Below are positions 1-64,000 of a DNA stretch of 64,000 nt, one piece after another. This stretch comes from Heterotrichella gracilis (taxonomy: Eukaryota > Sar > Xanthophyceae > Tribonematales > Xanthonemataceae): positions 57,902 through 121,901 of the forward strand of contig JAULBX010007329.1 in the NCBI GenBank assembly GCA_032358255.1, given 5' to 3'. Every line of letters starts with the position of its first letter. Positions within the stretch are counted from its first letter, which is position 1. The notes beneath the pieces are model-generated. The model saw nothing but the letters and a program-made list of their open reading frames with translations, was not told the DNA's origin and searched no databases. Both the position numbers and the translations under genes were made by a program.

Positions 1-132
1 ACAACCCTGCGCCCATCACCCTCCTCGCCCCCTCCCCAGGAACAAACCCTAAACCCTAAACACAGGCCCTCTACGGGGCTCCCAGCACCCCTTACCCCCT
101 CCGCACTAACCGCCTCCTCCCCTCTCCCGCAG

Positions 133-333
133 CAATACGAGCGCCAGCTCCAGAAGGGCCTCCTGGCAGACAACACCATCATGCTGTGGAACGACTCAGC
201 ACTGCGGGAGGTGCGCATCCCCCCCGGCCCCCGCCTCCTCATCCTCCACCACCTGGACCAGTACCGCCACCTGCTCAAGCCAGCCATGCCCCTGCCGGGC
301 GCGGTGGCACCGCCCCAGCCGACGTACAAGTGA
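133..333 (+). CDS. Last exon of an unrecognised gene (5' part outside window)
   Basis: A pyrimidine-rich acceptor ending in AG at 131-132 is followed by an open frame of 66 codons ending in TGA at 331-333. The peptide begins QYERQLQKG, has a middle HHLDQYRHLLKP and ends PPQPTYK. GC-rich third positions and the intact acceptor support a real terminal exon. The preceding intron (1-132) contains the telomere-like word AAACCCTAAACCCTAAA, as do most introns in the window. I do not recognise the family, and the rest of the gene lies to the left. A decayed second copy of this exon's 3' part follows about 60 bp downstream, which supports the frame because the copy keeps the HHLDxYRHLL stretch. Confidence 0.65.
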   Translation, partial: QYERQLQKGLLADNTIMLWNDSALREVRIPPGPRLLILHHLDQYRHLLKPAMPLPGAVAPPQPTYK

Positions 334-390
334 GCGGCGCGCGGTGATGGTGGCGTGGTGGTGGTGGTGGTGACAGGCGGGCGGGTGATG

Positions 391-513
391 TTGCGGGTGG
401 CGGGCCAGAAGGCGCTCATCCCTCACCATCTGGACGAGTACCGCCACCTGCTCTAGCCAGCCAGGGCCGCTGCCAGGCGTGGTGTCACCCCCACAGCCAA
501 CGTACAAGTGAGC
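391..513 (+). repeat. Decayed echo of the upstream terminal exon
   Basis: The segment repeats the 3' part of exon 133-333 (the HHLDxYRHLL stretch through PTYK-TGA) but has an in-frame TAG after the LL codons, and its frame drifts afterwards. It lies directly 3' of the functional copy. This matches the window-wide rule that copies of an exon's 3' part sit downstream. Confidence 0.85.
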
Positions 514-3154
514 GGGCGCTTGATGGTGTGTGTTCTGGGGAGTGGTGGGTGGGGTGGGGTGGGTGGGGGCAATACCGGCGGAGGGGCGTTAGGGCGTTAA
601 AAGGGGGTGTGGTAGTGCTGGTGCTGGTGCTGGTGCCGTCACCACAGTCAGCGTTGGGGTGGCGAGCGGTTGGTACTCCAAGCACTTCCATAGTCTTTGC
701 ACTGGTGGGAGGCTGGTGGTGTTTGGTTAGAGTGAGAGGATTATATCAGTACCCAAGGGTGATGCTTCGGGGGTTACGTGGGTTGCTATATGTGGGGACA
801 TGGTGCATCCCGGGGAGGGTTCATGCTTATTGCGGTATCAGCCTGGCAGCACCACTGGGCTGGGGGCCGACTTAGTTGACCCGGTGCTTGCAGGTGCCTC
901 TATTGGGTGCAGCTTTGTGTTTTAACATGCTTGTGGCTTTGTGAGTGTATCAGTTGCTTTGGGACAAATGTAGCGTGGGCCAATTTGCTGGGCGGCTCTT
1001 CCACAGTTAGTTTTGGCACCAGTTTTATATGCAGTAGGGTTGCAGTAGGGTTGCAGTAGGGTTGCAGTAGGAGCGGAATATTAGGGGGGCTGCTTTGTTT
1101 TGCACTCCCGTGTAAAAACACACTTGCCAGATTGGTCCCTGCGGCCCTATAAGCCCTTTCCAAATCCAGCTGTACGTCACGGTACACTGCTTGGGTATAT
1201 TCGGCAACTGCTGAATGAGTGGTACGCAGACTGCACTACACTGGAAGTGTTGTAACCTGTTTCATGGCCTGTGTGGCACACTTGAACACGTAAGTTATTC
1301 TTATAGGATTCTCTGCGGCGGCGGGGTTTGTGTCACACAATGTGTGCAACCTAGTGCTTGGCAGTGCACCAATCCAGGGGACAGTAGCACCACAGAACAG
1401 TCGAATATGCTACTGGACTGCATGGTCCACCAAGGTGTACAGCCTACCATTCCCCACTGGTCCATTAAAACGTACAGCCATTCCCCTTTATACAACTTTG
1501 GTTACCACAGCCCCTTCAACCCTTCGTACTGCTGCGTGTTGGGCCATGCTACAGTTTTTCCCGCGGCACACGAGTACATTCTAGTAACAGGGGCTCCGCG
1601 CCCTTCGCTGCTGGTACGTTCAAGGCATGGCGGCATGGCACTTGCATGTACCAGAGAGTGTGACTAGTAGAGTGTGACTGGTCTGTACATGCCTCGACCA
1701 AGACGTCTTCGTATGCAAGCGCAAGTTATGCGGGCGGATTGAGGTAGCAGCGCTGCTTGGTGCTCCTGAGGAGGCAGCGGGGAGTGAGCATGCATGCCAA
1801 AGTTTCCCGCCCACTTTGCACTCGAGTCTCGGATGCCTGCTGGTAAAAGCTTGTGAAAATATCGCACTCCCCTGGCGATGCCAGACGAACGCTTCGTTTC
1901 ATCTCGGACGCATCATCAATAGAGCGCCACGTCAGGGCCACCTTCCCCCCATTTCTTGTCCCATATTATGTTTTTACGCACGGGGCCCCGCACCTGTTCA
2001 GGTTTCCTGCACACAACTCGAGCTTGCATTCCCTCTTTCCGTTGATCAAGATGCTCTGGTGTCGCATAGTATCGCCTCAAGCTGGAGCGTCGTGGATTGC
2101 AAGGACAGTCCTAGCCTTGTAAGCGTCGGGTTATCTCCGGTAAGTGTGCACATGGGCGGGCGGGCGGGCGTTAAAACCGTGCACAGTACAGTACCACATC
2201 GGGAGTAGGCGGGTAGGAGTAGGAAGGTTCCTGCTGGGTGTGTACGGTTGCTGCACTTGCATCCCGCACCAGGTGTGCTCGCTGTCGCTCTTGCTGGTAA
2301 ACCCTGGCCATCTGCACTACTGTCGGATTGCTAGCGCAATCCACTAGCACGTCCCGTGCCGTTCCAAATGTTATGCGGCGTAGTGTCACACTTAGGGTGC
2401 TGGCTACCCGGTAGCCTGGTGAAGACGTGGGGAGCTTGAAGTTGCGGGTTGTGGGTCAGCCATGGCTCTCTCTGGGTGATCATGCGGCCACTTAATCACC
2501 CAGCTGGGACCCATTCAACATCCTACTTTGCGCACCACGGCTGACGTCTAAACGCTCTGCCCACTGTCGCAAAGTGTCGCAGCTACTGGTAGATACTAGA
2601 TAGGACACGAGGTAACCACTTACGATGTGCGTTGGTAGGGCTAGGACGCGACGAGTTTTGCTGTAGCCGGTTCCTTAGTGATGGCAGCTTCCTCCACCTG
2701 CCTCGCATCATGCCGCTGCGTTGCTGAGTCAGCTGCAGTCTAAAAAGCTTGAACAACTTGCAACAGTTGACCGGCACTCAGCTGTCGTAGTTAGTAACCC
2801 AAGTGTCTCGCCAGCTGTGGTTTTTAAACATTTTCCTCCGTCACACCACGTATGCAAGATGTATGCACACTCTTGGCTTTCATACACACCCTGACAAGTT
2901 CCTGGACCCTTGCAGGACTTCACCCTCTGCACAACAGTGGATCTATCCAGGGCCTGCCCACAACCTGTAAGCCTAGTACTTTATCAGAGGGGGCTGTCAA
3001 CACGCAACCACCTTCTAATGCTCCATAACCTCCAGCTCCTTGCCAACCTTCTACACCTCCAGTCCCACCAGTAACTCTTCCCTGGACAGCTTTGCAAGCA
3101 CAGCTAGACTTATACCAACTGCCACTGCCCCCTGGAACATCATCAGCAGCCATC
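514..3154. other. Intergenic stretch without a supportable gene
   Basis: Short overlapping frames occur on both strands but none has codon bias, splice context or a recognisable domain. The first few hundred bases are GT-rich. A short minisatellite lies at 1031-1070. The last part is the probable promoter of the gene at 3155; I saw no clear TATA box. Confidence 0.5.
1031..1070. repeat. 11-bp tandem repeat (GCAGTAGGGTT), about 3.6 copies
   Basis: Four successive GCAGTAGGG words are spaced 11 bp apart. The unit contains the AGGGTT core of the telomere-like motif common in this window. No coding function is suggested. Confidence 0.85.
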
Positions 3155-3790
3155 ATGGTCTCCCAGCTCTACCTGTTGGTGCCACTAGCGCTGGCCCTGT
3201 TGGCCCATCACACCACCGCCCAAACCCCTTCCCTGCCCGCCGACCAAGGCGTGCCCGACAAGCCCAGGGGGTGGTACAACGCACAGTGCTCCGACAAAGG
3301 GGATGTCGACTACTGCCGCTACGTGGGCAGCGGCAACGCAGAGTGGTTCTCCTGCGCCTTGGCCACCCACCCAGACAACGAGTTCACCTCAGAACTGGCG
3401 GGTTTCAACGAGACCACGGTGGGCAAGTGCCCACTTAGACGCATCGTGGTGCAGAAGACCCTATCCAATGGCCTCCTGCTGGTGGCGTTTGTGTCCCGCC
3501 CGCCCTACCCCCCCGGCCAGTTCCAAGGCGGCCTGCCCACCTACCCACCACCCCCACCCCTCCTGGAGACCCTGTTCAAGAAGCCGCCACCCCACAAGGC
3601 AGGCGCCAAGCACCCCCCACCCCACAAGACTGTCAAGCACCCCCCACCCCACAAATCGACCAAGAAGCCCCCTCCCAAGAAGTCCAACAAGAAGCCCCCA
3701 CCCAAGAAATCAACAAAGAAGCCCCCGCCCAAGAAGAGCACCTTGCGGCCCCCACCCAGGAAGCTCTCCCCCAAGAACACTGGGCGATGA
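3155..3790 (+). CDS. Secreted Lys/Pro-rich (hydroxyproline-rich type) wall protein, single exon
   Basis: The frame encodes 211 residues. I chose the ATG at 3155 because it is followed at once by a classic signal peptide (MVSQLYLLVPLALALLAHH, cleavage probably after TTAQ). An upstream in-frame ATG at 3092 would bury that peptide. Residues about 25-140 form a compact region with four cysteines (QCSDKGDVDYC, SCAL, GKCPL). From about residue 140 the protein is built of PPPHK and KKPPPKKS repeats rich in Pro, Lys and Ser, as in extensin-like or pherophorin-like algal wall proteins. Such proteins are normally secreted, hydroxylated and glycosylated; that is family knowledge, not visible here. The globular part was not assigned to a family. 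There is no intron. The 3' end is echoed about 120 bp downstream. Confidence 0.85.
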   Translation: MVSQLYLLVPLALALLAHHTTAQTPSLPADQGVPDKPRGWYNAQCSDKGDVDYCRYVGSGNAEWFSCALATHPDNEFTSELAGFNETTVGKCPLRRIVVQKTLSNGLLLVAFVSRPPYPPGQFQGGLPTYPPPPPLLETLFKKPPPHKAGAKHPPPHKTVKHPPPHKSTKKPPPKKSNKKPPPKKSTKKPPPKKSTLRPPPRKLSPKNTGR

Positions 3791-3870
3791 GCGTCCCCAG
3801 ACAACGCCCTTGTGCAAGGATCTCACTAGGTGGATGTACAGCGGAGCCCACCTTTCAAGGTTTCCAAGAG

Positions 3871-3909
3871 GCCCCGCCCAGGAAGATCTCCCATAAACAA
3901 CACAGGGCG
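3871..3909 (+). repeat. Echo of the 3' end of the Lys/Pro-rich gene
   Basis: The segment repeats bases 3751-3788 (the codons for PPPRKLSPKNTGR) with several substitutions and small gaps, and it lacks a clean reading frame. Even this intronless gene therefore shows a downstream copy of its 3' edge. Confidence 0.75.
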
Positions 3910-9500: not shown

Positions 9501-10978
9501 CCAGAGCTACTACAGGGTAGGCCCCAGAACCCTAGATCTGCACCCAGACAACATGCACACTGCCAGTGAACCGTCAGCAGTCTGCATGATCAAAACCCTA
9601 CCTTGTGGTGAAAACCCTGATATGTGCCCAGTACCCTAACATGTGGTTTCCTTTTACCTTGTTACTCAAGGCCTCAGCGCTGCCACAAGGCTTCGGTTGC
9701 CAAAACCCTAATGTATTACCAAGACCCTAACCTGTAGCTCCCTTTGCAGGCCACCAACAGCCATGTGATGAAAACCTTCAAAACCCTAACTTGCCATCAA
9801 TACCCTAACTTTGTGGTTTCATTTCCTTGTGCAGGCCACCAACAGCCTGGTCATCAAGCAGCTTGGCCTGAGCGACGACAAGAAATCATCGGTGGTCATG
9901 ATCTGCCGCAAGGTCTCAGACTCTGAAACCAACTGTGGGGATGGGTTGGACGACGACTGCAACGGGCTGGTGGATGGGGCGGATCCCGCCTGCAAGGGGA
10001 AGGACTCGGGGCCAGGCAGGGTGATCGGCACACAATCGGTATCCAACCCCACCACGCCCGCGCCCAAGCCTAGCCCAAAGCCTGCCCCCAGCCCCAAGCC
10101 TTCCCCCAAGCCCAAACCTAGTCCCAAGCCTAGTCCCAAGCCCAAGCCTAGTCCCAAGCCTAGTCCCAAGCCCAAGCCTAGCCCCAAGCCCAGCCCCAGC
10201 CCCAAGCCTAGTCCCAGTCCCAAGCCTAGCCCCAGTCCCAAGCCTAGTCCCAAGCCCGAGCCTAGTCCATCACCTAGGCCCAAGCCTTCTCCCAAGGCCA
10301 GCCCCAAGCCTAGTCCGAGCCCGAGCCCCAAACCCAGTCCCAGCCCCAAACCCAGCCCCAAACCCAAGCCAAGTCCCAAACCCAGCCCCAAACCCAGCCC
10401 CAGACCCAAGCCGAGTCCCAGCCCGGAGCAAAACGCATCCCCACCCACGCCCACCAGCGGCTCCAGGACCACCTATGGCATCGTTGGGGATCCCAGCACA
10501 ATGAAACCAGATCCCCTCCCGACCGACCTGGAGACACCCAGCGGTGTTTGCTCCTCGGCATCCTGCTACACGGCAGGTACGGCATGCATATAAACCCTAG
10601 ACACTACACCCTAAACTCTGCCCGCTTCACAGCGATGTTATCATGCCCATGCTCTCAGCCCTCTACTACACTGGCAGGATAAACATAAAATCCCTAATAC
10701 AGGCTTATATCGCGTGCGCCTCGCCTGCTTCCATATTTGTCCCGCCCTCATCAGTGTTGCCCCCCCTCCAAGCACTGGCCGCCATCCCACACCCCATTAA
10801 ATGTACTTGGTCCATTTGGGACATTAAACTTAACTTGTTCATTTATTTATTTGCGTCTTTGTGCACTGCAGCTGCCTATCAGAGCGTGAAGGCTGTGGGC
10901 CAAGTGGTGGAAGCATTCATCCCCGCAATGGGTCGTAAGCTAATGGCGACCGGGCGCCAGGCGGCAGCCAGGCATTAG
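6566..10978 (+). CDS. Gametolysin-like M11 zinc metalloprotease with Ser-Pro/Lys-Pro-rich region
   Basis: Exons 6566-6629, 6872-7111, 7333-7487, 7761-7891, 8417-8862, 9161-9384, 9835-10576 and 10872-10978 join in phase to 702 residues. The signal peptide is split over exons 1-2 (cleavage probably after TSAQA). Exon 5 carries the zinc site [11 protein letters not shown] at about residues 279-289 and a Met-turn (SAMG) near 304, the hallmark of peptidase family M11, which in Chlamydomonas digests the cell wall. Exon 7 has a Cys/Asp-rich [11 protein letters not shown] motif near 454-464. Then comes about 120 residues of SPKP/KPSP repeats (about 497-617), a short Cys-containing tail and a terminal exon ending GRQAAARH. 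Introns hold CCCTAAA words and echoes of exons 4, 5, 6 and 7. The protein is probably secreted to the wall; its substrate is unknown. Confidence 0.92.
6661..6749 (+). repeat. Two diverged ~45-bp direct repeats in M11 intron 1
   Basis: The sequence CTACCCCTTG...TGCAGTGTCCA..AAACC occurs twice in a row, and the second copy ends in a telomere-like AAACCCTAGACCCTAAACCC tract. It lies in the intron between the two signal-peptide exons and has no coding role. Confidence 0.75.
7972..8012 (+). repeat. Echo of the 3' part of M11 exon 4
   Basis: The segment repeats the codons for [15 protein letters not shown] with two amino-acid changes and a nearby GT. It lies in intron 4, downstream of the functional exon end at 7891, and is followed by CCCTACACC words. 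Confidence 0.85.
8174..8243 (+). repeat. Echo of the 5' part of M11 exon 5
   Basis: The segment is a diverged copy of the start of exon 5 (codons for WSANDASI through MQTAMD); the last 18 bases are almost exact. It lies upstream of the functional acceptor at 8415-8416 and is followed by CCCTAAAA words. Confidence 0.75.
9441..9516 (+). repeat. Echo of the 3' part of M11 exon 6
   Basis: The segment repeats the codons for [23 protein letters not shown] up to the donor. A one-base insertion in the NMM region breaks the frame. It lies about 55 bp downstream of the functional exon end, beyond CCCTAAACCCTAA words. Confidence 0.9.
9750..9770 (+). repeat. Echo of the 5' edge of M11 exon 7
   Basis: A TTTGCAG acceptor and the codons for ATNSHVM copy the start of exon 7 (TGCAG then ATNSLVI at 9835). 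It lies 85 bp upstream of the functional acceptor. Confidence 0.8.
10080..10430 (+). repeat. Coding 12-bp minisatellite (CCCAAGCCTAGT) for SPKP repeats
   Basis: About 350 bp of imperfect CCCAAGCCTAGT/CCCAGC units within exon 7 encode the SPKP/KPSP region. The antisense strand reads as a long open GLGLGL frame, which is a by-product of the repeat. Confidence 0.9.
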
Positions 10979-11260
10979 AGACCACCAGCCAGGCACTCAT
11001 CCCCGCAATGGGCCGCAACCCATCGACCGGGCATGAGAGACCACCGACCAGGCATTCATCCCCTCCATGGGCTGCAAGCTAATGGCGATCGGGCGCCAGG
11101 CGGCAGCCAGGCATTAGCGACACCAACCAGGCACGCATCCCCGCAATGGGCCGTAAGCTAATGGCGATCGGGCGCCAGGCGGGAGCCAGGCATTAGAGAC
11201 ACCAGCCAGGCACTCATCCCCGCCATGGGCCGGAAGCTAATGGCATTTGGCCGCCCCCAG
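10913..11260 (+). repeat. Five tandem copies of the end of the last M11 exon
   Basis: Units start at 10913 (functional, containing the stop at 10976-10978), 10993, 11052, 11131 and 11210. Unit lengths are 80, 59, 79, 79 and 51 bp. Each repeats the codons for (E)[21 protein letters not shown]-stop plus a short 3' UTR linker. The last unit ends in a new CCCCCAG/GT. The array lies in the 3' UTR or just beyond it. Confidence 0.92.
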
Positions 11261-14294: not shown

Positions 14295-15060
14295 TGTGCT
14301 TTCTGCTACCCCTGATAGGGCTGGGCTTTCTTCTTTATTCGTTCACAGGCCTGCAGCAAACAAACTGTGTGTCTTGGGCAGGGACCAGGGGCTTTGCTTC
14401 AAGGGTTCTGCTTCCGAAAGCGTGCACCCAGGCTCGTGTACCATGAGGGATAAATGCAAGCCCACGAGAAGATAAGCAGGTTGTTTGAGGCCACGAGAAG
14501 CTTCAACACCAGTTTGCTTATGCTTCACAGGTTGCCTAGACAATGTGGGCCAATGACCGCGCACGGCGGCCTTACCTTCCAGCCAGGGATCTCACGGACA
14601 GCGTGCAGCAACCTAGTTCAGCGTTGCCAGCCTGAAATGCACTGTTTTGGGGACGGCTTGAGCCAATTTACTGCTGAAGTCTTGCAGACCACGCGCCGCA
14701 AAGCCACCCCAGTTGACGTGGCACGAAATGTGGGGCAAATGTCCGAGGGGATGTAATTGTAATCCAGTGGAAATGACCCTTAATTTCGAACATATTGCAA
14801 GGCCCAATATCGGGGTCCAAAAGAAGTAAAACATGCCCATAAAGAAGGGCGAAAAACAGCAAGGAGAAAACAACTCCTCGCGACAGCGGTTTGGGTACAA
14901 GTTGTTGAACCGATTGCACAGTTGTGTCGGGAAGCTATCACACATAGGTGTCGCGTTCCAAGGGTGGGGTCATCGGCTGCGTGCTGAGTACCTGGCAGGT
15001 TTTTGCACAGGTTTAAAAACAGCACTTCTCTGGTTTCGGTGAAACGGGATTTCTGGCAGG
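14295..15060. promoter_or_regulatory. Shared intergenic region between two divergent genes
   Basis: The 766 bp separate the start codons of PRPL31 (-) and the RING ligase (+), so both promoters must lie here. I see no convincing TATA box. Assignment as a bidirectional promoter is inference from gene order only. Confidence 0.5.
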
Positions 15061-19388: not shown

Positions 19389-19512
19389 GCAGCAGCGGTT
19401 CTTTCTGGCGGGAAGTGCGGCAGCACATGTAGCTTCATCGCTGCTTCACATCAGGTCTGCGCGCGACGGCACAAGGTGGTCGCAAAAGCGCTATTCCCCT
19501 CGCAACGCGGCG

Positions 19513-19600
19513 CAGCATCGGGCAGCAGATGGCAGGGGAGTTGGTCAAACCCACCAGCAGTGCGGGCATGCTCGCGCACAATGTGGTGTCGACTGCTGGC
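19513..19600 (+). repeat. Echo of the 3' part of RING-ligase exon 8
   Basis: The segment repeats the codons for [22 protein letters not shown] with substitutions and small indels. It lies in the 3' flank, 125 bp beyond the functional stop. Confidence 0.8.
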
Positions 19601-27164: not shown

Positions 27165-28356
27165 TCAGCGCAAATACCATGTGGAGCCCTCAGCCAGAGG
27201 TGAAACCTCATCCTGCGCAGCCAGCGACATTGCCTGCATGACATTTTCCATGGCCATGCGCCGAGGCACGCTGCTTGATCCCGACTTCTTGCCCGCGGCT
27301 CCTTCATCAAATAGCACGAAGGGACCTGCTGTGCCGAAGCGGCCGTCGCTCACCACGTAATCGCCTGCAAAGCATCTGGAACAGTGGATGAGTAGGTGAA
27401 TCGGTGCCAACGAGGGCTGTGACCAGGTGGGTAAAAAGGTATGGCAATCCCTGATTAATGGTTTTTTTTTAGTAGTAGTATATGCCTGATTATTATCCCT
27501 GATTATTATAATTATTATGATTGGATGGCTATGATCAATGTACTGTAGTCCCCTGTGGTGCCAACCCACTGCGCTAGACCATCCCATAACGGTGGGGTGT
27601 TTAGGGTTTAAGGTGTAGGGTTTAGGGTTTGCTCACCTGTGGCGCCAGCCCACTGCGCCGGTTCATCTACCACTGGGAGGGTGTTTAGGGTTTAGAACTA
27701 CGGATTTAGGGTGAAGGACTCCTCGTTTAGGGTTTGCTCACCTGTGGCGCTATCCCACGGGTAGGGTGTCTAGGGTTTACACCTTAAAAACCTTATCAGG
27801 GTTTAGGGTTTGCTCACCTGTGGCGCCACCCCGTCCACCATGAGTAAAATGTGGGGCTTGCCGCTACGCCAGGTCTGGTAGGGTGTTTAGGGTTTTAGGG
27901 TGCAGGGTTTAGGGTTTGCTCACCTGTGGCGCCTTCCCACTGGGGCACTCCGTCCACCACCGGTAGGGTGTGGGGCTTGCCGCTGCGCCAGGTCTGGCCA
28001 ATCACCCCATGCATGTCGGTCACTGATCGGTCGAAGATGGCGGTGCGAATGTTGACCCACTGCGGGAAGAAAACACAATTAATGGGAAACAATGGGCACA
28101 ACATAAAAACCCATGAATTGGAATTGTGGGAAAATGGAAATAATTGCTTACCCTAAATGGTAGACCCATACACCCAAAACCCTTACCTGGGGTTCGGCGG
28201 TGACTGTGAATGACATGAGGGAGGTGCGCAGGGTGACGCTCTGGTGCCCCCCTTCCTCCCCACCGGCCAGCACCACATCAGCCCCCTTGATGCGCATGGG
28301 CTGAGCATGGGTGAGGTAGGACAGGTAGGCTGTGATGTCCTGATCCTGAACGTTCA
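27165..28356 (-). CDS. Root-cap/LEA-like protein, three 3' exons (5' part unresolved)
   Basis: Exons 28356-28187, 28059-27924 and 27364-27165 (minus) join in phase and end in TGA at 27165. They encode NVQDQDITAYLSYL, a beta-rich SVTLRTSLMSFTVT stretch, WVNIRTAIF, then HGVIGQTWRSGKP followed by GDYVVSDGRFGTAGPF and a Ser/Met-rich tail. From memory, the GVxGQTxR...DYxVxxxxFG pattern resembles the C-terminal part of the plant Root_cap (PF06830) domain; I could not run the comparison. The first exon here begins mid-codon, so upstream exons exist, probably within 28880-29220. Introns contain repeated echoes of the donor edge of exon 28059-27924 and of the acceptor edge of exon 28356-28187. Function in an alga is unknown. 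Confidence 0.7.
27546..27900 (-). repeat. Four echoes of the 3' edge of a root-cap-like exon
   Basis: The words CACCTGTGGCGCC..CCCAC (minus-strand donor edge of exon 28059-27924) recur near 27551, 27637, 27739 and 27818. From the second on they follow a TTTAGGGTTTGCT tract, as does the functional edge at 27910-27935. All lie downstream of the functional exon on the minus strand. Confidence 0.88.
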
Positions 28357-28600
28357 CTGCGCAAGGAAGGCAAGTGATGGGGATTAGGAAAAAAACAAGG
28401 TATTATGAGAAATGATGATGAGATCAAGATAGGTGTCCTGATCCTGGACGTACACTGCGCAAGGAAGACAAGTGATGGGGACTAGGAAAAAAACAAGGGG
28501 ATTATGAGAAATGATGATGAGATCAAGATAGGTAGGATGTGATGTCCTGATCCTGGACGTACACTGCACAAGGAAGACAAGTGATGGGGGTTAGGAAAAA
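28330..28600 (-). repeat. Three-copy ~105-bp tandem echo of the 5' edge of exon 28356-28187
   Basis: TGATGTCCTGATCCTG.ACGT.CACTGC (exon start and acceptor on the minus strand), followed by CAAGTGATGGGG.TTAGG and an AAATGATGATGAGATCAAGATAGG block, is repeated. Copies start near 28334, 28433 and 28541. Only the first is in the functional exon; the other two lie upstream of it on the minus strand. Confidence 0.9.
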
Positions 28601-28879
28601 TGCAAGGGGATTATGAAAGTTTGAGGGGATCAGGGCACCGCTGGGCTGACGCAACAGGCGCTGTGGGTAGAGGGGATACAGGGTGGTGGTGGTTGGTGCA
28701 GAGCTTATGCCCTAGGCTAGGGTCTTCCAGGATGAAGCCCATATGGCCAGGCATGCACATATTGCAACACCTGATCTTATCTCTGGTTGAAGTGGCACAT
28801 ATTGCCAATTTGACACATATTGCCAGGGGCCCTAAACCCTATACCCTAAACCCCAGTCGGCAAAACAGGGTTTAGGGTT

Positions 28880-29392: not shown

Positions 29393-29592
29393 CCTTACCT
29401 GGGGCTCGGTGGCAATTGGGATTCTTGTGAGGATGACTGAGTGAGGTGCGCAGGGTGTGGGCCCCGCCTCAGTCACGGCGGCTGTTGGCAGCATTACGTC
29501 AGTCCCCTGATGCGCATGGGCTAGGTTGTTGGGACAGGTAGGATGGCGTGTCCTGATCCTCACCGAGACACACTGTGCACCCTGCGCAAGGG
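29393..29592 (-). repeat. Nearly full-length decayed copy of exon 28356-28187
   Basis: The segment aligns along the whole functional exon, including both splice edges (CTTACCTGGGG.TCGG at one end, GATCCT...CTGCGCAAGG at the other), but has indels and substitutions. It lies about 1.05 kb upstream on the minus strand. Confidence 0.85.
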
Positions 29593-30850: not shown

Positions 30851-33800
30851 ATGCAGCCGTCACGGCACGGGCGCCGGGGGGTGGGTGTACCCCACGCGTG
30901 GCGGGCAGCGCTTGCCTTGCTCCTTGCAACCCTGCAGCCGGCGCTCTCCGCCCCAGTCTATAAGGTATGTACGCTGCTTGTGAAAGGGTGTGGTTGCCGT
31001 GCTTCCATGTTGTGGAGGTGTTTCTGTAGTGAGCGCCAAAAATCACTGCTGCTATACCTCACATGTACTCTATGAAAGAGGAAAAAGAATGTGTGCACCT
31101 CCCTACACCCTTTGATGTCCCTTGCACCCACTCGAAACCCTAAACCTTCCACTGCAAACCCTAAAGCAAAACCCTGTTGCGTGTCCCTCCTGCAGCCCAT
31201 TGATGGCAGGGGTTTTATGTATGAGAAGCCAGCAGGGGAGGCTTCCTTGCACGCAGCTGCTATACCTCACAATGTACTGTTTGAAAGAGGGGAATAAATG
31301 TGCATGCGCCTCCCTACACCCTTTGATATCCCTCGCGCACACCCTAAACCCTCAACCTTCAACTCCAAACCCTAATGACAACTCTACTGCCTGCAGCCCA
31401 TTGATGGCAGGGATGTGATGTACGAGAAACCAGCAGGGGAGGTAAAGGGGGTGGTGTTTTTGGCGCACGGCTGCTCGCACGCTGGGACCGACTTCTGGGA
31501 TGCATCCGACGCCTGCCCCCAGTGCCTAGGTACAGGAAAACCCTTAGAAAATGACCCAAACCCTTGTATAATGGGACCAATCTTACAGCTGCCATAAGTG
31601 CCTAGGTACGGTAAAACCCTGAAAGGGAACCGAAAAGTTTAGTCCCTGAATCTGGCGCACGACTGCTCCCACGCGGGGACCGACTTCTGGGATGCATCCG
31701 ACACCTGCCCCCAGTGCCTAGGTACGATAAAACCCTAAAACCTAACCCTAAACCCTGGGCCCTGAACTCTGAACCCTGAACCCTAGGCTGGAGACCGCCT
31801 TTGCTTCCAGCATATGCCCTAAAGTTTGAGCGGCTAGGTATGGTAAAACCCTAAGGAGAGGACCCAAACTCTTGTCTCATGGGACCAATCTTACAGCTGC
31901 CTCGAGTGCGGTGAAACCCTGATAGAGGACCCCAATGTCCAGTCTTTGTTGTCAACACCCCATTTAGGGTTTCGAGGCCCGCCAGCGTAGCGCTGCCCGG
32001 GGGAAAGCGCATGGTGCAGCGATGCCCGGCGCAGCGCCCCACCTGTGCAGTGTGTAGGGTTCATGGTTGAGGTTTTGGGGTGTTGAGCGGCACAGCTCCA
32101 TCCCTGGCCAACAAGTGGCCCACACACTGGTTTCCACTGTGCAGGGCTGCCCAAAGGAACACGCATCGTGCAGCGGCTACAAACCCTAAACCCCAACCCC
32201 AAACCCTAAACATATTCCCTGGTTTCCACTGTGCAGGGCTGCCCGAGGAAAAACAGATTGTGCAGCGGCTGCTTGCGCGCGGCTATGTGCCCCAAACCCT
32301 AAACCCTAACTATACCCTGGTTTCTCCTGTAGGGCTGCCAGAGGAAAAGCGCATCGTGCAGCGATTGCTGGCGCGGGGCTATGTGCCCCTGGCCATCTCC
32401 AGTGCGGACCGAGCTGGTACCCGGTGCTGGGACATCCAGATACCGCTGTCAGACTCCGCCGACGTGCCCTTTGTGAGTGAATGGTACAAAGGCTAGCACA
32501 TCATTGGGACTTGAATGAACTGCGTAACGCTGGTGTCAAGAACCTGAAATTGCTCAAAATGGTGGGGAATTGGTGCATGGCAAGGTACCCGTGGCCATCT
32601 CCAGTGCAGACCGGGGGGGCATGAGTTGTTGGGACATCCAGCTGCCTCTGTCGGACCATGGTGCGCCCAGCGCATACAGCGGCGGCCATCATCCATGGTG
32701 GTGGATGATGATCCACCACCATCGTCAGGTGGTGGATTCAGGTGAATCCACCACCTGAATCCACAGGGACAGGTGGATTCCCTGTGCCACAAGAATGATG
32801 AGAACGTAAGACACAACCCTACCTAAAGCAGAACCCTATTTAATACCCTAATCTGCATTGTGGCTCTACAGGTTGTCAAGGTGCTGAAGCAGATACGCGC
32901 AGAGGAGTCTTGGGAAGCGCTGCCGCTGTATGCGCTGGGCGCCTCTTCGGGTGGATACCTGGTCATGGCGCTGCCATTTGCCATACACCTGGATGGCGTG
33001 TGCCCGCAGGTAGGGTTTTTTGCCTTTTCATTTTAGGGTAATCTCTATTAGGGTATACCTCATTGGGTGGGTATCTGGTCATGGCGCCGCCCTTTGCCAT
33101 ACTGCTGGATGGCGTGTGCCCTCAGGTAGGGTATTTGCCTTTCACCCCTTTGGGTAATGTCTGTTAGGGTAATTCCCCCTTAATACCGGCATGCTGTCCT
33201 TGGACTAGTTCCACTGGATTATACACCATCCAGTGGACCCAGACACCGGAGGTAACTAAAGGTATGCAGGGTACGTCGATCTGCCAACGCACCTTATCAA
33301 TATCATCATTGCTCTGTTGTTTATCTGGAAATCTCATCCATCTTTTGTGCCCGAGGATCGCATGATCGTCATGCCCGCCTCGAGGCTCGATTGCGCGGGG
33401 GAGAGGAATCATAGTTTTTAAATATCATTGTGTCTCCATTTTCAAATATATATCCAAAATCTGATCTTTTTTTGTGCTTGCAGATTGCCGCCATGCCTGC
33501 CTCGGGCCTGGAGCGCGCGGGCGACATCCGCACCTACCCCCCCACCCTGTTTGTGCACATGCCGCGGGACCAGAAGACCCTGCACGCGGTCAAAATGGTG
33601 CTGTCGGTGTTGAAACACAAGGTGAGGGAAGTGGAGGCGCCTCGCGATGTAGTGAGTGTAGGAATAAGAACAAAACGCGTCCTGTGCTCTATTGCCTGGC
33701 ATTTTCAAGGGGATGTAACATTGAAGGGAAAGCCCAGAAGCCAGGGGACTAGCCCCTTCTTGTGACATTGTCTGCCCCACCCTTTGCACAGCATACCAGT

Positions 33801-36800
33801 TGCCGAGGTTGGAAGTGCGGCCCTGCCTCGCAACGCCGCCTACTTTTCAGATTGTAAGGATGCCTCCCTCCCCCGCTTTCCCATGTCTTAAAACATGTAA
33901 TGGGGTAGAAACCCTTCCGGCAACCCTTTGCAATGTGCGTAACCCCATCATTGGCCCCCCTTCCCCACCCCCTGCAGTCCATCCCAGTTGGGAGATCGAG
34001 GTGCGGCCCCTGGCCATCAACGCCACCTACGTTTCAGGGGGAAAAAATGAAATTACGCTCTATTGAGCGTGAAAAAATACCATATAAATGGTACAATGGA
34101 ATGGGGCTGGAATTTTAAGCATGTTAAGTCTCAGAGTACCCACCTTGCCCGGCCCTCAACACCACCAACTCCACCCCCTCGCCTTGCAGAGCATCCCCGT
34201 TGCCGAGATCGAGGTGCGGCCCCTGGGCATCAACGCCACCTACTTGGCGGACCGCATCGATGGTTTCCCCCCTGAGAAATCCAAGGCAATTTTCGACATC
34301 TTCATGCAATCCCACATGCTGAACGAGGACGGGACCCTCATCGAAAACCCTAGGTGCGGTGAGAAAACCCTAAACCCGCTGCTGGGGGAGAATGGAACCC
34401 GATGTGCGTCCTGGGTGCATTGGCGTGCGCTGGATGAAAACCCTACAACCTAGACATGCAGAACATGTCAACAGGCCGCCACGACAAGGTGCTGTGGGGG
34501 GTGCCGGTAGTAAACTCTAAAAATAAAATAAATAAATAATAAATAATAAATAAACAAAAATAATGAAACTAATAAAAAATTGGACGGGCACAGGGGGGTC
34601 AGCGCCTGCACCTGACTCTCACCCTGCACCTACAAGCCTGCCAGGCCTGCTGTTGCCAACCCCGAGACCCTAGACTTTGAACCCTACACATTATGTAGTA
34701 AATACCCCCCAAACCCTAACCTGGGGCCTTGTTGCGCACAGGGCCGTGGCCACCTACTGGCAGACCACGATCAAGGACATAGTGCGACCCTGGGCGCAGT
34801 GTTTTGGCAACCCTAAACCCTAAACCCTAAACAGGCAGTTTCAAACCCTACACCTTACACCCAAAACCAACACCCTTAAACCACCCAAAACCCTAACCTG
34901 GGATCTACTGAGTCCAGGGCCTTGACCACCTACTGGCAGACCATGATCAAGGATATCGTGCCACCCTACACCCGAACCCTATACCCTAAACTGCCCCAAA
35001 ACCCTAAATTGGGGTTTGTTGCACGCAGGGGCGTGGCCACCTACTGGCAGACCATGATCAAGGACATTGTGCCCCCCGGGATCAGCCTGGTTGCGGATGG
35101 CAGTGCAATCTTTGAGGAGCTGAACGTGGCATATGCAAGTGCGTGCCCAAACCCTTAACCCTAAACCCTGAACCCTACACAGCCCTTTCACGTATATGCA
35201 AGTGCGGTCGGGTGGTAAACCCTAGACATTAAACCCTTGAATCCTAAGGTCAGCCTGATTGCGGATGCAATCTTTGAGGAACTGAACGTGGCGTGTTCAA
35301 GTACGTGCCAAACCCTCAAACCCTAATCTCTAGACCCTGCAATCCTGAACCCTAAACCCTAGGGTCAGCCTGGTTGCGGATGGCAGTGCAATCTCTGAGG
35401 AGCTGAACGTGGCATATGCGAGTGCGTGCCCAAAACCCTTAAACCCAAATTCCTATACTATAAATTCCAAACCCTAAACCCTAGGGTCAGCCTGGTTGCA
35501 AATGCCAATGCGGAGCTGAATGTGGCATATGCAAGTGCGTGCTTAGAACCTAGTTTCTAGACCCTAAACCCTAGACCCTAGGGTCAGCCTGGTTGCGAAT
35601 GGCAGTGCAATCTCTGAGGAGCTGAACGTGGCGTTTGCAAGTGGGTTCCTGAACCCTAAACCTAGTCCACACCCTGAACCCTACTCAGCCCTTTCAGGTA
35701 CATGCAAGTGGGTTGGGGTTGTACACCCTAAGCTGTGCATTCCAAACCCTAATCCCTAAACCCTAGGGACAGCCTGGCTGCGGATGCGACCTTGAAGCTT
35801 TGCTAGAGGGGGACCTCAAATGGTGGAGCGCGACCACCCATAATCCCCAAGTATGAATGCATAACCCTAAACTTTAACCTTGAGATCTTGTAAATTCCCC
35901 CTGTTTTCTGTGTATTATTTGTTAAAGGGCCTCAACCAAATCCCGCAGGCCACGAGATAGTGAGCGACTACACTGAAGACATGTTGGATTTCTTTGAGGC
36001 AAAGGGGGATCTGAAGATCGTGGAGCGGGACCACCCCGAGTCGGTCCTGGTGGCACACGGCGCCTTCACGTACGGCCACATGCACACAACGGCATACTGA
36101 CCAGGCACGTTGACTAATGTAATCAAGGCGCTAAAACGCGGCCCTTTGCATTAGCGGCCAAGCGCCCGTTACATTGCCTTTTTCTGTGTCTCAACACTGA
36201 AAATTCTGCGAGAAAGGCGTTTTTTCTTGGCCCACGGCGCCTTCACGTACGGCCACATGCACACAACGGCATACTGACCAGGCACGTTGAACCGATGTAA
36301 TCAAGGCACCAAAACGCGGCCAAGGCATGAGTGGCCAAGCGCCCCGTTGCATTCCCGTTTTTTTTGTGTCCCAGCGCCGTCTCTACCAAAAATTGTGCAA
36401 AAAAAAGGTTATTTTCTTGGCCCACGGCGCCTTCGCGTAAGGCCACATGCACACCACGGCATACTGAACAGGCACGTTGAACCAATGTAATCAAGGCGCC
36501 AAACGTGGCCATTGCATTACTGGCAGCGCACCCTCCACATCGCTGTTTTTTCTCCCTTTACTTTGGAGATTACTCAAATATCGCCATTTTTGGCACATGG
36601 CGCCTAACCGTACGGCCACATGCACACAACGGCTAGTGTGGCTAATGTTTTAACATTAAAATGCCATTGCCGGGGGGCAGCAGCAGCTTCAGTAAATTAC
36701 AAGATTACAAGATTCATTTGACAGTCACATTCAGTGCAACATAAATACTACAAGATTTTTTGATGCATGTATTGATATTCCCCTTACTTTTCCCTTGATA

Positions 36801-38861: not shown

Positions 38862-59191
<20,330 letters not shown>

Positions 59192-60131
59192 CAGGGGTGT
59201 GTGGGGGCGAGCATGTGGGGAGGGACGTAAAGGTCTGGCTGTGGATATGCTTGGTGCAGAGTATAGTAGGGTATAGGTATCCTTGTAGAGGTCACGACTT
59301 CACACCTGCCCCGCACCAGTAGGGTTTCCTGTAGGGTTTTCTGTAGGCGGCGTCCTGCCAAGATTGCTGTAGGTTTACTGGGGGCTGTCGTTGACCTTTC
59401 TCCACTCTCGAGGTAAATTCTTGTGTTACATCATGATGCTGCAATGGCTCCATGTGTTGTTCATAGATGAGTACCACGGTAAGGATGGTCGAAGCCCTGC
59501 AGTTGTGTGCTGGACCCTAGACCCTAGACCCTAGACCCTAGACCCTAAACCCTAGACCCTAGACGTTAAGTTAGACAGACACACACGATGAGAGCTGTAT
59601 TCTTGGGGCAGACTGGGCTACCTGTATTATATTAGAAAGCACGACGGGCGGAACGGTTGTTTGCTTGACAGGGGTTGGAAAGCCGCTTTGTGTTGTTGCA
59701 CGCCGCCCCTCCCCCTTCAAAATATGCCTATTTACATGTCCCAAGTTGTAAGGGATACGGCAAGTCAAGTTATTGACAAGCTGCCCTTGTGCCATTTCAA
59801 GGTCGTTTCAGAAGCACTGGCAGCATTTCTGAACGGACCTGGTTCAAAGCCGGTTTATATCGTTTTGAAAGTTGGTCAACTTTGTGCGAATGCGCTACCT
59901 TACCCTTGTAGAGGTTGGCTTGCTCCAGTGTTTGTACATCTACAGAGATGTTCACAGTTGTCCTCCCGAAGGTTGTTAGGCAATTAGTAGGTAATACCGG
60001 CCCACTTAAGACGGGTTTTCTGGCCACTCCATCCACTTATGCCAGTTGTTGAGCACGTGGCACTGTGGGAGTATAAGCGCAATTAATATGCTGCCGACCA
60101 TCGGAAAGTGAAATGGTCTCTCATCGACGAA
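59192..60131. other. Intergenic stretch, 3' flank of CHD1
   Basis: Contains a telomere-like array (59513-59564) and a possible algal TGTAA poly(A) signal near 59746. No coding sequence was recognised. Confidence 0.45.
59513..59564. repeat. Interstitial telomere-variant array (CCCTAGA)n
   Basis: Seven consecutive heptamers GACCCTA with one canonical CCCTAAA inside. It is the longest run of telomere-like heptamers I found and lies outside genes. Confidence 0.93.
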
Positions 60132-60203
60132 GTCGGTGTAGTTTAGTGGTTAGAACACTGCGTTGTGGCCGCAGAGACCTGGGCTCGACTCCCAGCACCG
60201 ACA
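60132..60203 (+). tRNA. tRNA-His (anticodon GTG), no intron
   Basis: The 72 nt fold as a full cloverleaf: acceptor GTCGGTG/CACCGAC, D arm GTTT/GAAC, anticodon stem CTGCG/CGCAG with loop TTGTGGC (anticodon GTG), T arm CTGGG/CCCAG with loop CTCGACT, discriminator A. It closely resembles plant nuclear tRNA-His. The base at -1 is A, so the G-1 of mature tRNA-His would be added after transcription, as usual in eukaryotes. CCA happens to follow in the genome (60204-60206). Confidence 0.97.
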
Positions 60204-60206
60204 CCA

Positions 60207-60224
60207 TATTTTGCCCTTTTTTGC
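60207..60224 (+). terminator. RNA polymerase III T-run terminators after tRNA-His
   Basis: TTTT begins four bases after the tRNA, and a TTTTTT run follows within 20 bp. This is the normal pol III stop signal. Confidence 0.8.
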
Positions 60225-61220
60225 CTATCACCACAGTATCTTTTTTGCTCTCCACTCGCTGTTTGTTGCTTCAACCACTCCTTTCGTTGCGTATAGTGTG
60301 GTATGTTCCCAATACTGTGTAGCCTGCATCTCGCACCCGCGTCGATGGGACATGCCGTTGCGCATGGGTGTCATGCCTTCTGTTCTATCACCTTCGTGAC
60401 AAGGGCCGGTGGTGTGCCTTACCAAGCAAACAACAATAACCTAATAAGCTAGTACTTTGAATGAGTGTTGGCTCCCTGGTGCGAGTGCGGGTGTCCAGGC
60501 TGTCGACATTGCAATGGTTTGCCTGTAGGCATCAGGGCTGGGGTTGTGTCTACAAGGTTAGCGGCATAAAAGGCTAGAAAGGCAAGTCTGTACGGTTTGT
60601 GTTTGTGGCTAGAAACCTCCAACGTGAGCGCCCAAGTGCTGATGGGCTATGTCTGGGCTATACTTTGCAAGGAGAAACGTGGCAGCCGAAAAAAGAAAGT
60701 TGCACTCAAACCACTAAACAGGAGACAAAGAACGTCTGCTCGCTTTTCAAAGGTGCTGAAGCAAGTCAGGCGGATTACATGGGGAAAAGGCATCAGGTCT
60801 TGTGGTGATAAATATAGCTGGCACACTAGGCAGTAATGAACAACACTGCCATAGCTGGCACACTAGGCAGCAATGAACAACACCAGCGTATATGTATACA
60901 ACACCAGCTGACCTGCGCTGGCTCCAGCATAGGGCTGTGTCAAGTATATCAGCCACGCGCACCCAGATCGTGAAGGCCCTTAGGGCACCCATGGTGGGGT
61001 CATCGGGTCTTTCCGGGCAGCTTTTCCATAACCACTTTGGCGAGAACCACAACTGCGGGTCCCCAACTGCAGCCAGGCAGGGTACTGGCAGCCTCCCAAA
61101 CCGCAAAGCTGTGGCAGGCTCACTGCTGGGTTGTGCGGTGTAGGGTTTAGTCACGCTTGCTAGGCACTGCCTGGTGTCTCTAGGGCAGGCAGCGTCCTTC
61201 CGGAAACCCTAGGGGGTTGC
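60225..61220. other. Intergenic stretch between tRNA-His and the - CRAL-TRIO gene
   Basis: No supportable gene. A short direct repeat (ATAGCTGGCACACTAGGCAG.AATGAACAACAC) occurs twice at about 60816-60885. Confidence 0.5.
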
Positions 61221-63983
61221 CTAGGGTAATCCCGCGTCGTAGTCCCACACGTGCTGGGGTATGTGGGCCTTGAGGGCATCGGGGAACATACCCCACAGCT
61301 GGGCGATCCTGCAAGGGGAGGTTGATTTTAGGGTTTAGGGTTTAGGGAGCCACCTCAAATCCCCCACAGCTGGGGGATCCTGCAGGGGGCAGCCAACTGG
61401 TCAAGGCGTGTTGGACGGGGAAGTGCCACCCACACCAGGCACACCCCACAACCCACCCTCTCCACACCGCCTTCTCCACACCATACACCGCACACCACAT
61501 GCCCCCAGACCCACCTGTCAAAGTAGTCCACGCCCCCATACACCGCCGGCTCATGCAGCGCAAGCACCCACGCCCACGCCTTGAGCCTTGCGGTGGGGTG
61601 CAACGCCCGCACCCCCCGCAGCCGGGAGCGGTGCCCGGGGGCTAGCGCCGCGTGCAGTTCGGCGAACCACACCGCAGAGGGTAGGAGGGTCATTGGGGCG
61701 TGGGCGTGCAGGTAGAGGATGGTGAAGCTGGCCCCCTTGGGCACCTGCTCCATCTCCTGTGAGAGAGGTGCAGGTTTAGGGTTTACTTTAGGGTTTAGGG
61801 TTTACTTTAGGGCTCTGTGTGTTTGCAGGTAGAGGATGGAGAAGTGGGCCCCCTTGGGGACTTGCTCCGTCTCCTGTGAGAGGGGCCCAAGGGGGTTGCT
61901 TAGAGTTACTTCGGCAGCACTCGTGGGTTTCTGGGGGTTGGGAGTAGGGCGTAGGGAATTTTGGCGCGCAAGCTCAGCAACCGCCATGAAGGAGGATCAC
62001 GGGCGCGTACGCATGCAGGCCCACCCACCAAATTGCAACATCACTTCAAGCACCACCAAAAGCACCACCCACCACCCACCTGCACAATGTGTAGCAGCAG
62101 GTCTTCTTGGCGCAGGGCCTGCCCCCGGTAGTGGCCACCCACCACCAGCACCACCACACTGCCGCTGGCGTCAACCACATCCGGAAGCACCTGTGGAGAA
62201 GAAGGGGAGTGGAAGGGGTGGGTGGGTGCGAGGGGGTCAAACCATGCTAGTAGGGGGAATATGGCTAGACCGAGGTGTGCGATGCATTGTGCCATGGCCT
62301 CGCAATGCAATGGAGTAGGGAGTGGGGATATGCCGTGGACGATGTGGCACCACCACCACCACCCACCCTCACATGCTCCAGCAGGCCGCGCCACGCCTCC
62401 TCCAGTGGCCACCACCACCACAACCACGACCACCACAACCACCACAACCACAACCACCACAACCACCACAACCATCACCGCACCACCACCCACCTGCACC
62501 ACGCGCATCTCCCTCACATGCTCCAGGTTGCGAGAGGCAGACACAGCCAGGCACTGCTGGCGCCACGCCTCCTCCAGTGTCCGCCCCGGCCGCCGCCTGA
62601 GTCGCTGGGTGTCGGGTGATGGCAGGGGGGTGGTGAGGTCGGGGGCGCGGCTGCGGGGCCTGGAGGGGAGAGGGGAGGCGGAAATGAGGATTGGATGTGC
62701 TGCTGCTGCCTGCGTGTATGTGCACTTGCACACAAACCCCTCCAGCAATGCCTGGCCAGCACCCATCCCTGTCCACCCACTCCCAGGCAACGGAAGCTCC
62801 CATTGCCATCCCAACTGATGAAAGGCAGCTGCATGCACATACTCCCCTTGACACCAACGGGCACACACTCACACACCCTCTCGATGCCCAGCGGCCTTGC
62901 CCTGAAATTCAACATGAAAGCAGATACCAATCACCCACCTGCTGCTTGATCCCCGGCCATGCATGCTGCCATTGCCATTTCCATTGCCACCCCCACTCCC
63001 GCTGGTGCTGGGCAGCGCCCCCCCTGCGCCTGTGTCGAACCAGTGGCGCACATCTGGGAGCCAGCCCTGTGTGGGGAGGAAATGGGGCTGATGTTTCAGC
63101 CAGCTTAGGGTTTAGGTTTTAGGGTTTACACCTTTGGGAGCCAGACCAGTGTCGAACCAGTAGTGCACATCTGGGAGCCAGCCCTGCGTGCACGGGAGAG
63201 GAGTGTTAGCTAGTAGCTTAGGGTTTAGGGTTTAGGGTTTACACCTTTGGGAGCCAGACCAGTGTCGAACCAGTGGCGCACATCCGCGAGACAGCCCTGT
63301 GTGCACGGGGGCGTAGTGTTAGCTAGTAGCTTAGGGTCTAGGGTTTAGGGTTTACATCTTTGGGAGCCAGACCAGTGTCGCACCAGTGGCGCACATCCGC
63401 GAGACAGCCCTGTGTGCACGGGGGCGTAGTGTTAGCTAGTAGCTTAGGGTCTAGGGTTTAGGGTTTACATCTTTGGGAGCCAGACGAGAGTCGACCCAGT
63501 GGCGCACATCCGGGAGCCAGCCCTGTGTGGTGGGGCCGCGGCGTCACGTACGATTCTGGCGTTGTAAATGTATTCCTTTCTATTCTTTCCATTGTTATTT
63601 TATGCAAGCAGGGACTCGATCAGCCTTGCACAGGGACCAGACTACCCACGAAACCATAGGGCAGGGTTAGCCGTGGGGGGAGTGGCTTCATAGCCGGACC
63701 ACATGCTGCCAACCTAAACCACATGTTTTGAACCCTCATCCCAAACCCTGCACTCTGCTTTTCCAGCTCGCCATGCTAGTGAATCACACCTTGTTTCCCC
63801 CTCCGCTGCTGCTGCCGCTGCTCCCGGGGCGCTGTGAGGGCCCCGGTGCGGATGGCCCGGGGGCGTAATCGGGGGTGGGGGGGCTCCAGGGCCTGTCTAC
63901 ACCCTGCTCTGGCCGTGCGGTAATATGTATTTTCCGGTCCAGGGTTTCGGCTGTGCGTGGCTGCAGGGGGGTTGGCTTCACAT
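61221..63983 (-). CDS. CRAL-TRIO/BCH-domain protein, 3' six exons (5' part outside window)
   Basis: Minus-strand exons 63983-63790, 63066-62939, 62659-62494, 62190-62080, 61756-61515 and 61308-61221 join in phase and end in TAG. The first two encode low-complexity Pro/Ser/Gly sequence with WLPDVRHWFDTG. The third has TLEEAWRQQCLAVSASRNL. The last three form the domain: VLPDVVDASGSVVVLVVGGHY, FTILYLHAHAPMTLLPSAVWF, LRGVRALHPTARLKAWAWVL and VDYFDRIAQLW. This follows the CRAL-TRIO_2 (BCH) pattern seen in GDAP2, BNIP2 and ARHGAP1/8 (xVYxH..., L...YVVHPT.WLK). Such domains bind lipids or small-GTPase regulators. The N-terminal partner domain, a macro domain in GDAP2, would lie to the right and cannot be checked. 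Confidence 0.85.
61345..61390 (-). repeat. Echo of the 5' part of the last CRAL-TRIO exon
   Basis: CCCCACAGCTGGG.GATCCTGCA copies the start and acceptor of exon 61308-61221, upstream on the minus strand and beside TTTAGGGTTTAGGG. Confidence 0.85.
61815..61880 (-). repeat. Echo of the 5' part of exon 61756-61515
   Basis: The segment copies codons for (E)MEQVPKGASFTILYL with its acceptor (TCTCCTGTGAGAG), preceded by repeated TTTAGGGTTTACTTTAGGG. It lies upstream of the functional exon on the minus strand. Confidence 0.9.
62358..62412 (-). repeat. Echo of part of exon 62659-62494
   Basis: CTCACATGCTCCAG joined to GCGCCACGCCTCCTCCAGTG copies two parts of the exon (SNLEHVRE and TLEEAWRQ) with the middle deleted. 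It lies downstream on the minus strand, followed by a CCACCACAA microsatellite (62413-62480). Confidence 0.88.
63124..63530 (-). repeat. Four-copy ~115-bp array echoing exon 63066-62939
   Basis: Units beginning near 63131, 63246, 63359 and 63474 contain GTGTCG.ACCAGT.G(C/T)GCACATC.G.GAG.CAGCCCTG (codons for GWLPDVRHWFDTG plus acceptor) and a linker TTAGCTAGTAGCTTAGGGT.TAGGGTTTAGGGTTTACA. All lie upstream of the functional exon on the minus strand. Confidence 0.93.
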
Positions 63984-64000
63984 CTGGGGGGAGGAGTGGG

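Follow-up and report, generated by a model that had tools for sequence, protein, structure and literature searches.

The DNA analysed here, referred to as the window, is a stretch of 64,000 nucleotides corresponding to bases 57,902–121,901 of contig JAULBX010007329.1 (hereafter C75), from an assembly of 68.5 Mb in 903 contigs that was deposited under the name Heterotrichella gracilis (GCA_032358255.1). Its introns contain decayed partial copies of the neighbouring exons, which we call echoes. Three genes were modelled exon by exon, two of them on the plus strand and anchored by proteins, and one on the minus strand modelled by eye. The exons of the anchored genes were fixed by homologous proteins and an open joined frame, and those of the first gene, encoding a CHD1-type remodeller, also by exon-by-exon tblastn and AG/GT edges. 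The conserved part of this gene spans 45191–53725 and comprises exons A (45191–45431), B (46050–46195), C (46481–46666), D (47097–47258), E (47735–47905), F (49075–49280), G (50242–50556), H (52025–52178), I (52888–53011) and J (53562–53725). The second gene, alpha/beta-hydrolase-like and with 155 homologs including those of green algae and plants, spans 30851–36000, with exons 1 to 7 at 30851–30964, 31397–31529, 32333–32472, 32872–33009, 33484–33621, 34190–34353 and 35029–35138, and exon 8 from 35949 onwards.

Echoes were sought by comparing every exon with the introns on either side of it, and those reaching the exon edge within 6 nt formed the strict class. In the CHD1-type gene, exon A is preceded by a 5'-part echo at 45014–45079 (92% identity, exon bases 1–66) and followed by a 3'-part echo at 45482–45602 (88%, exon bases 125–241). 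Exon B has two 5'-part echoes (45803–45866 and 45926–45997; 92–93%), and exon D has one (46925–47014; 96.7% over 90 nt), whose intron half is clearly homologous, yet more diverged than its exon half. Exon E has a 5'-part echo at 47544–47638 (91.6% over 95 nt) and 3'-part echoes at 47995–48083 (91%) and 48168–48261 (96%). The three 5'-part echoes of exon F (48537–48608, 48717–48788 and 48897–48967; 93–97%) form a tandem array with a period of 180, and its 3'-part echo lies at 49377–49444 (92.6% over 68 nt). Exon G has a 5'-part echo carrying an in-frame TAG (50059–50157; 92.9% over 99 nt) and four 3'-part echoes (50648–50743, 50859–50938, 51059–51138 and 51253–51330; 85–89%). The 5'-part echoes of exon H are at 51559–51627, 51722–51740 and 51858–51926 (91–100%), with a 3'-part echo at 52261–52358 (94.9% over 98 nt), and exon I has a 5'-part echo at 52702–52764 (82.5% over 63 nt) and 3'-part echoes at 53105–53168 (92%) and 53242–53308 (85%). 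Internal fragments, all on the side of the nearer exon edge, lie upstream of exons D (46817–46841), E (47384–47445) and H (51420–51458 and 51739–51754), and downstream of exons B (46352–46382) and H (52437–52492).

In the hydrolase gene, a 5'-part echo of exon 2 lies at 31196–31241 (89%; the intron part from 31048 is homologous too) and a 3'-part echo at 31653–31721 (94%). Exon 3 has three 5'-part echoes (31992–32032, 32145–32175 and 32237–32293; 83–88%) and a downstream internal fragment (32571–32656; 76%, exon bases 37–122 of 140), and the 3'-part echo of exon 4 at 33058–33125 (87%) belongs to a contiguous tandem copy with a period of 116. Single 5'-part echoes belong to exons 5 (33367–33402; 78% over 36 nt) and 6 (33980–34030; 92%). 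Exon 7 has 5'-part echoes at 34742–34793 and 34923–34966 (88–91%), and 3'-part echoes starting at 35250, 35362, 35484 and 35581 together with an internal fragment at 35766–35786 (75–97%).

These two genes yielded 46 plus-strand matches; one additional 24-base exon match, on the minus strand, was set aside. All 21 of the 5'-part copies lie upstream of their exon, all 17 of the 3'-part copies lie downstream, and each of the 8 internal pieces is on the side of the nearer exon edge. Exon-derived copies alone account for 2,839 of the 10,827 intron bases. The minus-strand gene at 27.9–28.4 kb agrees: the exon at about 27923–28059 has two 3'-side copies downstream (27636–27684 and 27827–27878; 78–85%), and the exon at about 28187–28359 has two 5'-part copies upstream (28434–28457 and 28527–28566; 90–92%). 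The first-pass annotation had described decayed partial copies in the introns, placed upstream when derived from the 5' part of an exon and downstream when derived from the 3' part; as an observation this is confirmed, by the 46 matches with all 38 strict echoes among them, and its interpretation is partly supported, as discussed below. A copy that it gave as full-length (29393–29592) is indeed present upstream of the minus-strand exon at 28187–28359, but is only near-full (29426–29560; exon bases 13–155 of 173, 71%), and none of the 46 matches in the CHD1 and hydrolase genes is full-length. For a copy described as internally deleted (62358–62412), a brief look gave two short matches besides itself.

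Copies of both kinds share an intron in seven cases, and in all seven the 3' copies of the upstream exon precede the 5' copies of the downstream exon. This order bears on the Rogers intron-gain model, which would likewise put 5' parts upstream and 3' parts downstream, is treated as a prevalent mode of intron gain in a review (PMC3443670) and has reported cases in Drosophila (PMC2891723). In that model an intron would open with the 5' echo of the downstream exon and close with the 3' echo of the upstream exon, the reverse of what is found in 7/7 introns, and the echoes include splice sites and often intron sequence, which makes such an origin of the copies very improbable. The placement follows from tandem duplication whose two breakpoints fall on either side of an exon edge, together with the loss of events that disrupt the exon. 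A duplicated segment that runs from an intron into the following exon leaves its truncated copy upstream, and one that runs from an exon into the following intron leaves it downstream. It is a consequence of this geometry and not an independent law, so that, although the rule is observed as claimed, it tests tandem duplication and does not constitute a new regularity.

Comparison of the window with itself gave 95 same-strand local repeat pairs, 94 of them spaced less than 1 kb apart, versus 2 inverted pairs. Over 27 ten-kb stretches of algal DNA, of which 6 belong to the window and 21 lie elsewhere (telomere-like hexamers masked), near pairs numbered 250 direct versus 14 inverted; three contaminant-like stretches, with 0 direct and 2 inverted pairs, were excluded from these sums. 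A classifier of copy placement, using only the extension of the coding score past the repeat, relied on a coding model trained on the CHD1 and hydrolase genes, of whose exons it flags 15/18. Its calls came from ten contigs including C75, most pairs being left uncalled for small margins or coding scores. In stretches other than the window, which include further parts of C75, agreement with 5' parts upstream and 3' parts downstream was 24/24 at a margin of 6, 34/35 at a margin of 4 and 13/13 at a margin of 8; the respective figures for the window were 38/41, 53/57 and 19/20. Two of the window's discordant pairs at margin 6 each consist of two echoes, of CHD1 exon E or H. The third was mis-scored: on inspection, 415–548 (plus strand) copies the 3' part of an exon and lies downstream of the part that it matches, 238–370, with 83% identity and both copies stopping at the same GT. 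Margin 4 adds one discordant pair in the window and gives one elsewhere. The assembly is fragmented and has bacterial-looking contigs, which could raise the suspicion of an assembly artefact, but most copies differ from their exon by 3–25% and have distinct intron parts, which read misassembly does not yield, and the classifier calls are spread over ten contigs; we regard an artefact as scarcely credible. With respect to introner-type dispersal, the single 200-base echo screened against the whole genome matched itself and one local sequence.

Homology extends past the splice site into the intron in 22/38 strict echoes (shuffle p ≤ 0.05). Together with the prevalence of direct pairs, this supports the earlier proposal of local tandem duplication with one breakpoint inside the exon. 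On the truncated side, 36/38 strict echoes are without homology (p ≥ 0.06) and one is at p = 0.05; the exception, the exon H echo at 51722, has clear homology where the next fragment starts. Repeats that are contiguous over the whole period occur at 32942–33171 and 47811–48273. The AG or GT at the retained edge is kept in all 32 edge-reaching echoes, a weak result because copies within an array are related. The spacing of repeats is bimodal (109 ± 22 and 196 ± 26 bp), and two components beat one by 28.6 units of the Bayesian information criterion in a fit to 182 pairs among which array members are not independent.

An unlikely alternative is that an exon part and a few bases were copied and that about 100 bp of unrelated filler, often telomere-like, was inserted between the copies. 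It would explain why the difference rate, 0.07–0.11 within the exon part up to its edge, rises steeply beyond (32 pairs, compared ungapped on the intron side), why the median repeat length is only about half of the spacing, and why telomere-like sequence is enriched within 40 nt past truncated ends (0.279 versus 0.149, p 0.002, with non-independent copies). Against filler, intron homology in 35 pairs exceeds that of unrelated exon flanks to 70–100 nt, with 49% of pairs in the top decile, and it is evident at CHD1 exons D and E and at hydrolase exons 2, 4 and 7.

We consider it likely that the echoes stem from recurrent short tandem duplications that cross exon boundaries and are tolerated because they are spliced out, a reading that leaves their uneven decay unexplained. 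Short segments, with repeats about 110 or 195 bp apart, would have been duplicated in tandem again and again. Breakpoints in an exon and its adjacent intron would give an intact exon plus a copy missing one of its two splice sites. Because this truncated copy would leave with the intron and the protein would be unchanged, the duplication could persist, with copies of exon fronts ending up upstream and copies of exon backs downstream. Later duplication of units, or unequal exchange, would produce arrays, and introns would lengthen. Staggered breaks that are filled in and joined may be the origin of the duplications, fill-in by the telomere-associated CST / Pol alpha-primase being one published route, and telomere-like repeats may mark or promote the sites.

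Several observations weigh against this interpretation. Significant intron-flank homology was absent by the shuffle test in 16/38 strict echoes, and homology over essentially the whole period (L/d ≥ 0.85) was found in just 7/134 pair clusters. Intron-only pairs are scarce in the two anchored genes (3/63); two of the three are intron parts of echo units, and the third, starting at the edge of exon 2, is possibly independent. A simulated gene-blind process gave 5% to 59% intron-only pairs, depending on the starting intron length, and gene-blind duplication therefore fits only if introns were formerly short. Under simulated neutral decay, 84–95% of pairs at 85–94% identity were still homologous across 80% or more of the period. 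The observed proportions were 12% at 90–94% identity (n = 16) and 30% at 85–90% (n = 27); 1 of the 3 pairs with at least 94% identity reached this level, where all were expected, as did 31% of those at 75–85% identity (n = 61; simulated 52–67%). The median divergence of echo–functional pairs was 0.09 in the exon half versus 0.45 in the intron half (n = 20), and that of echo–echo pairs 0.15 versus 0.5 (n = 14), with the intron half more than twice as diverged as the exon half in 16/20 and 8/14 pairs, respectively. These divergence estimates are calibrated by simulation and hinge on the indel rates and unit sizes assumed, and alignment of these introns is hampered by repeats, both telomere-like and simple. 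Where the intron halves of single pairs can be aligned well, as in 48717/48897 of exon F and 47817/47995 of exon E, they have decayed to a similar degree as the exon halves. Global alignment of intron parts with many gaps was abandoned as a yardstick, as unrelated introns reach 0.73 identity in it.

Simple duplication followed by neutral decay does not fit, because the exon-derived halves stay alignable while the intron-derived halves have diverged several-fold more; the ratchet proposed in the first-pass annotation is thus not supported in a purely neutral form. The asymmetry arises either in the making of the units or afterwards, with gene conversion, junction filler and fast intron turnover as candidates. 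The foremost ideas on why the exon halves stay the more similar are gene conversion by the functional exon and very rapid turnover of introns.

The conservation of exon halves relative to intron halves could also mean that echoes are under selection as functional decoys, alternative exons or RNA-pairing elements. In the 38 matches of at least 40 nt, differences between echo and exon at codon positions 1/2/3 number 46/60/140, and 57% are synonymous versus 26% expected without constraint; the intact splice dinucleotides point the same way, weakly, given the relatedness of array copies. However, a substitution has created a stop in 4 of these 38 matches and 11 contain an indel, the copies are partial and lack one splice site, and the synonymous excess is partly explained by the functional exon's own synonymous changes being counted once per echo. 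Where a whole array agrees against the functional exon, the sites are distributed 2/0/8 over the codon positions (third in 8/10), and adjacent echoes differ from each other at 27/44/59. The third-position bias is suggestive and weakened by repeated counting, and the codon pattern is no proof of selection on the echo coding sequence, which we did not retain as a candidate; functional echoes of the kinds named seem quite unlikely.

The phenomenon is unevenly distributed, and the earlier suggestion that it is a property of the genome does not hold as stated: outside C75, 10 pairs are reached in 3/18 algal stretches of ten kb, each of them on contig C300, where two of the three were picked after the first had proved dense, and 5/18 have none. 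Two of ten 3-kb pieces reach the same density, and five have no pairs. Echoes are scarcer in other places: among the 58 chaperonin-family matches listed, no obvious echo was seen in a search with low sensitivity to short copies. Pair density correlates with the density of telomere-like motifs (Spearman 0.79; 37 stretches, to which C75 and C300 contribute 12) and, in the same 37 stretches, is not tied to coding fraction (−0.14) or to the number of coding-like segments (−0.02). Both densities covary more than tenfold between contigs, for example C75 and C300 versus C10, C12 and C20. Stretch L006 and the window's first 10 kb are exceptions, being rich in telomere-like sequence yet having few pairs. 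A telomere-like 15-mer occurs 5,117 times in the genome, versus once for its reversed control.

Of the intron bases outside echoes in the two anchored genes, 16.6% belong to telomere-like sequence, mostly CCCTAAA on the sense strand (1194 versus 171 nt). This sequence peaks 21–60 nt upstream of functional exons, in the branch-point region, and the peak may be linked to branch points. GGT simple repeats follow several 5' splice sites, in the introns at 45.4–45.7 kb, 49.3 kb and 53.1–53.4 kb.

Repeat pairs in the window overlap coding-like segments in 68/95 cases, versus a circular-shift mean of 40 (as high in 1/2000 shifts), and 3 lie more than 700 nt from such a segment versus a shift mean of 17 (as low in 38/2000). 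In the other stretches, pair coverage is without a gradient by distance from coding sequence, except beyond 2 kb. On contig C804, a gene for the second-largest subunit of RNA polymerase has an exon with a 5'-part echo 186 bp upstream, and within the same 1.5 kb (C804:115701–117200, stretch L037) this gene contains an intron-only tandem duplication of about 80 bp, measured by eye. Exclusive targeting of exons was dropped on account of this duplication and the missing distance gradient, and the only claim made is that repeat pairs score above random positions for coding.

A more specific version, which we put forward tentatively and hold to be rather improbable, is that parts of this genome are in a state that favours tandem duplication and is coupled to telomere-like repeats, through the action of telomerase or CST / Pol alpha-primase on breaks. 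Repeats would preferably be spaced about 109 and 196 bp apart, and gene conversion would keep the fragments exon-like. Ku-family matches, algal or bacterial, occur on two contigs, and a search with a Stn1 model gave no match here nor in any control.

The host of the window, to judge from its predicted CHD1-type protein, is a green alga of the Trebouxiophyceae, because relatives of this protein include those of Trebouxia (76% identity, with 76% of the query covered), Auxenochlorella (73% identity, 73% covered) and a record with the tag Astpho2 (72% identity, 82% covered), which we read as Asterochloris. The GC content of the window is 0.50–0.57 per 10 kb, and published Trebouxia genomes have about 50% GC. 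Several contigs have a bacterial look: C1 because of its low GC and proteins of bacterial type (stretches L003 and L004), C100 (stretch L016) because of its GC content of 37% alone, and C371, C331 and C180 because of long open intronless genes of rpoB or chaperonin type. The presence of two algae in one assembly as the source of the patchiness was judged unlikely, because a listing of 54 matches (114 candidates, 52 scored) has CHD1-level similarity at one place only, and in view of the RNA polymerase second-largest-subunit genes, of which three loci have introns and three do not. Elsewhere in the window, a tRNA-His gene lies at 60132–60206. Plus-strand open frames in the first 10.6 kb or so encode a zinc-metalloprotease-like motif and, at 10062–10424, a Pro/Lys/Ser-rich repeat, putatively of a gametolysin-like product. 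When ten open frames were searched against Pfam, a chromo domain was identified, along with a single collagen match under its cut-off.

Intron growth without transposons is an open question, and copies of many ages are available here in one genome; the echo share of the introns would be larger once co-duplicated intron parts are counted. If the gene-conversion reading is true, introns carry a refreshed partial copy of coding sequence. Sister strains would allow a direct test of whether introns grow by duplication and whether exon and echo convert one another. The link to telomere-like repeats is testable because CST is a telomere complex. Echoes are also a hazard for gene prediction, as they seem coding and retain one splice site. 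The density, patchiness, coupling to telomere-like repeats, two spacings and uneven decay deserve more study.

The first-pass annotation knew of no description of the pattern. By titles and the beginnings of abstracts, the open-licence papers listed in searches for it offered no genome-scale account and no report of such a density, although one tandem duplication across an intron–exon boundary has been published for a potato RdRp gene (PMC4974935), the closest published case seen. A single event there led to a new intron and a piece was kept as an exon, whereas the alga has tens of copies, of 5' and 3' kinds, that are apparently spliced out whole. Rogers-type intron gain in Drosophila (PMC2891723) resembles the alga in the local tandem duplication of exon sequence tolerated through splicing, and differs in that here the order of copies is reversed and the duplication takes in splice sites that were already present. 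Duplication of exons in tandem, giving mutually exclusive exons (PMC9013439), likewise places local exon copies beside the original, but involves whole exons, unlike the single near-full, decayed copy of the minus-strand gene. Schimmel and colleagues describe how CST-guided Pol alpha-primase at 3' overhangs yields small tandem duplications (PMC8355091). This repair route, which involves a telomere complex and may have a counterpart in the alga, was demonstrated at breaks made by Cas9 in cells of mouse and human. What is unusual in the alga is the number, the patchy distribution and the uneven decay of the copies.

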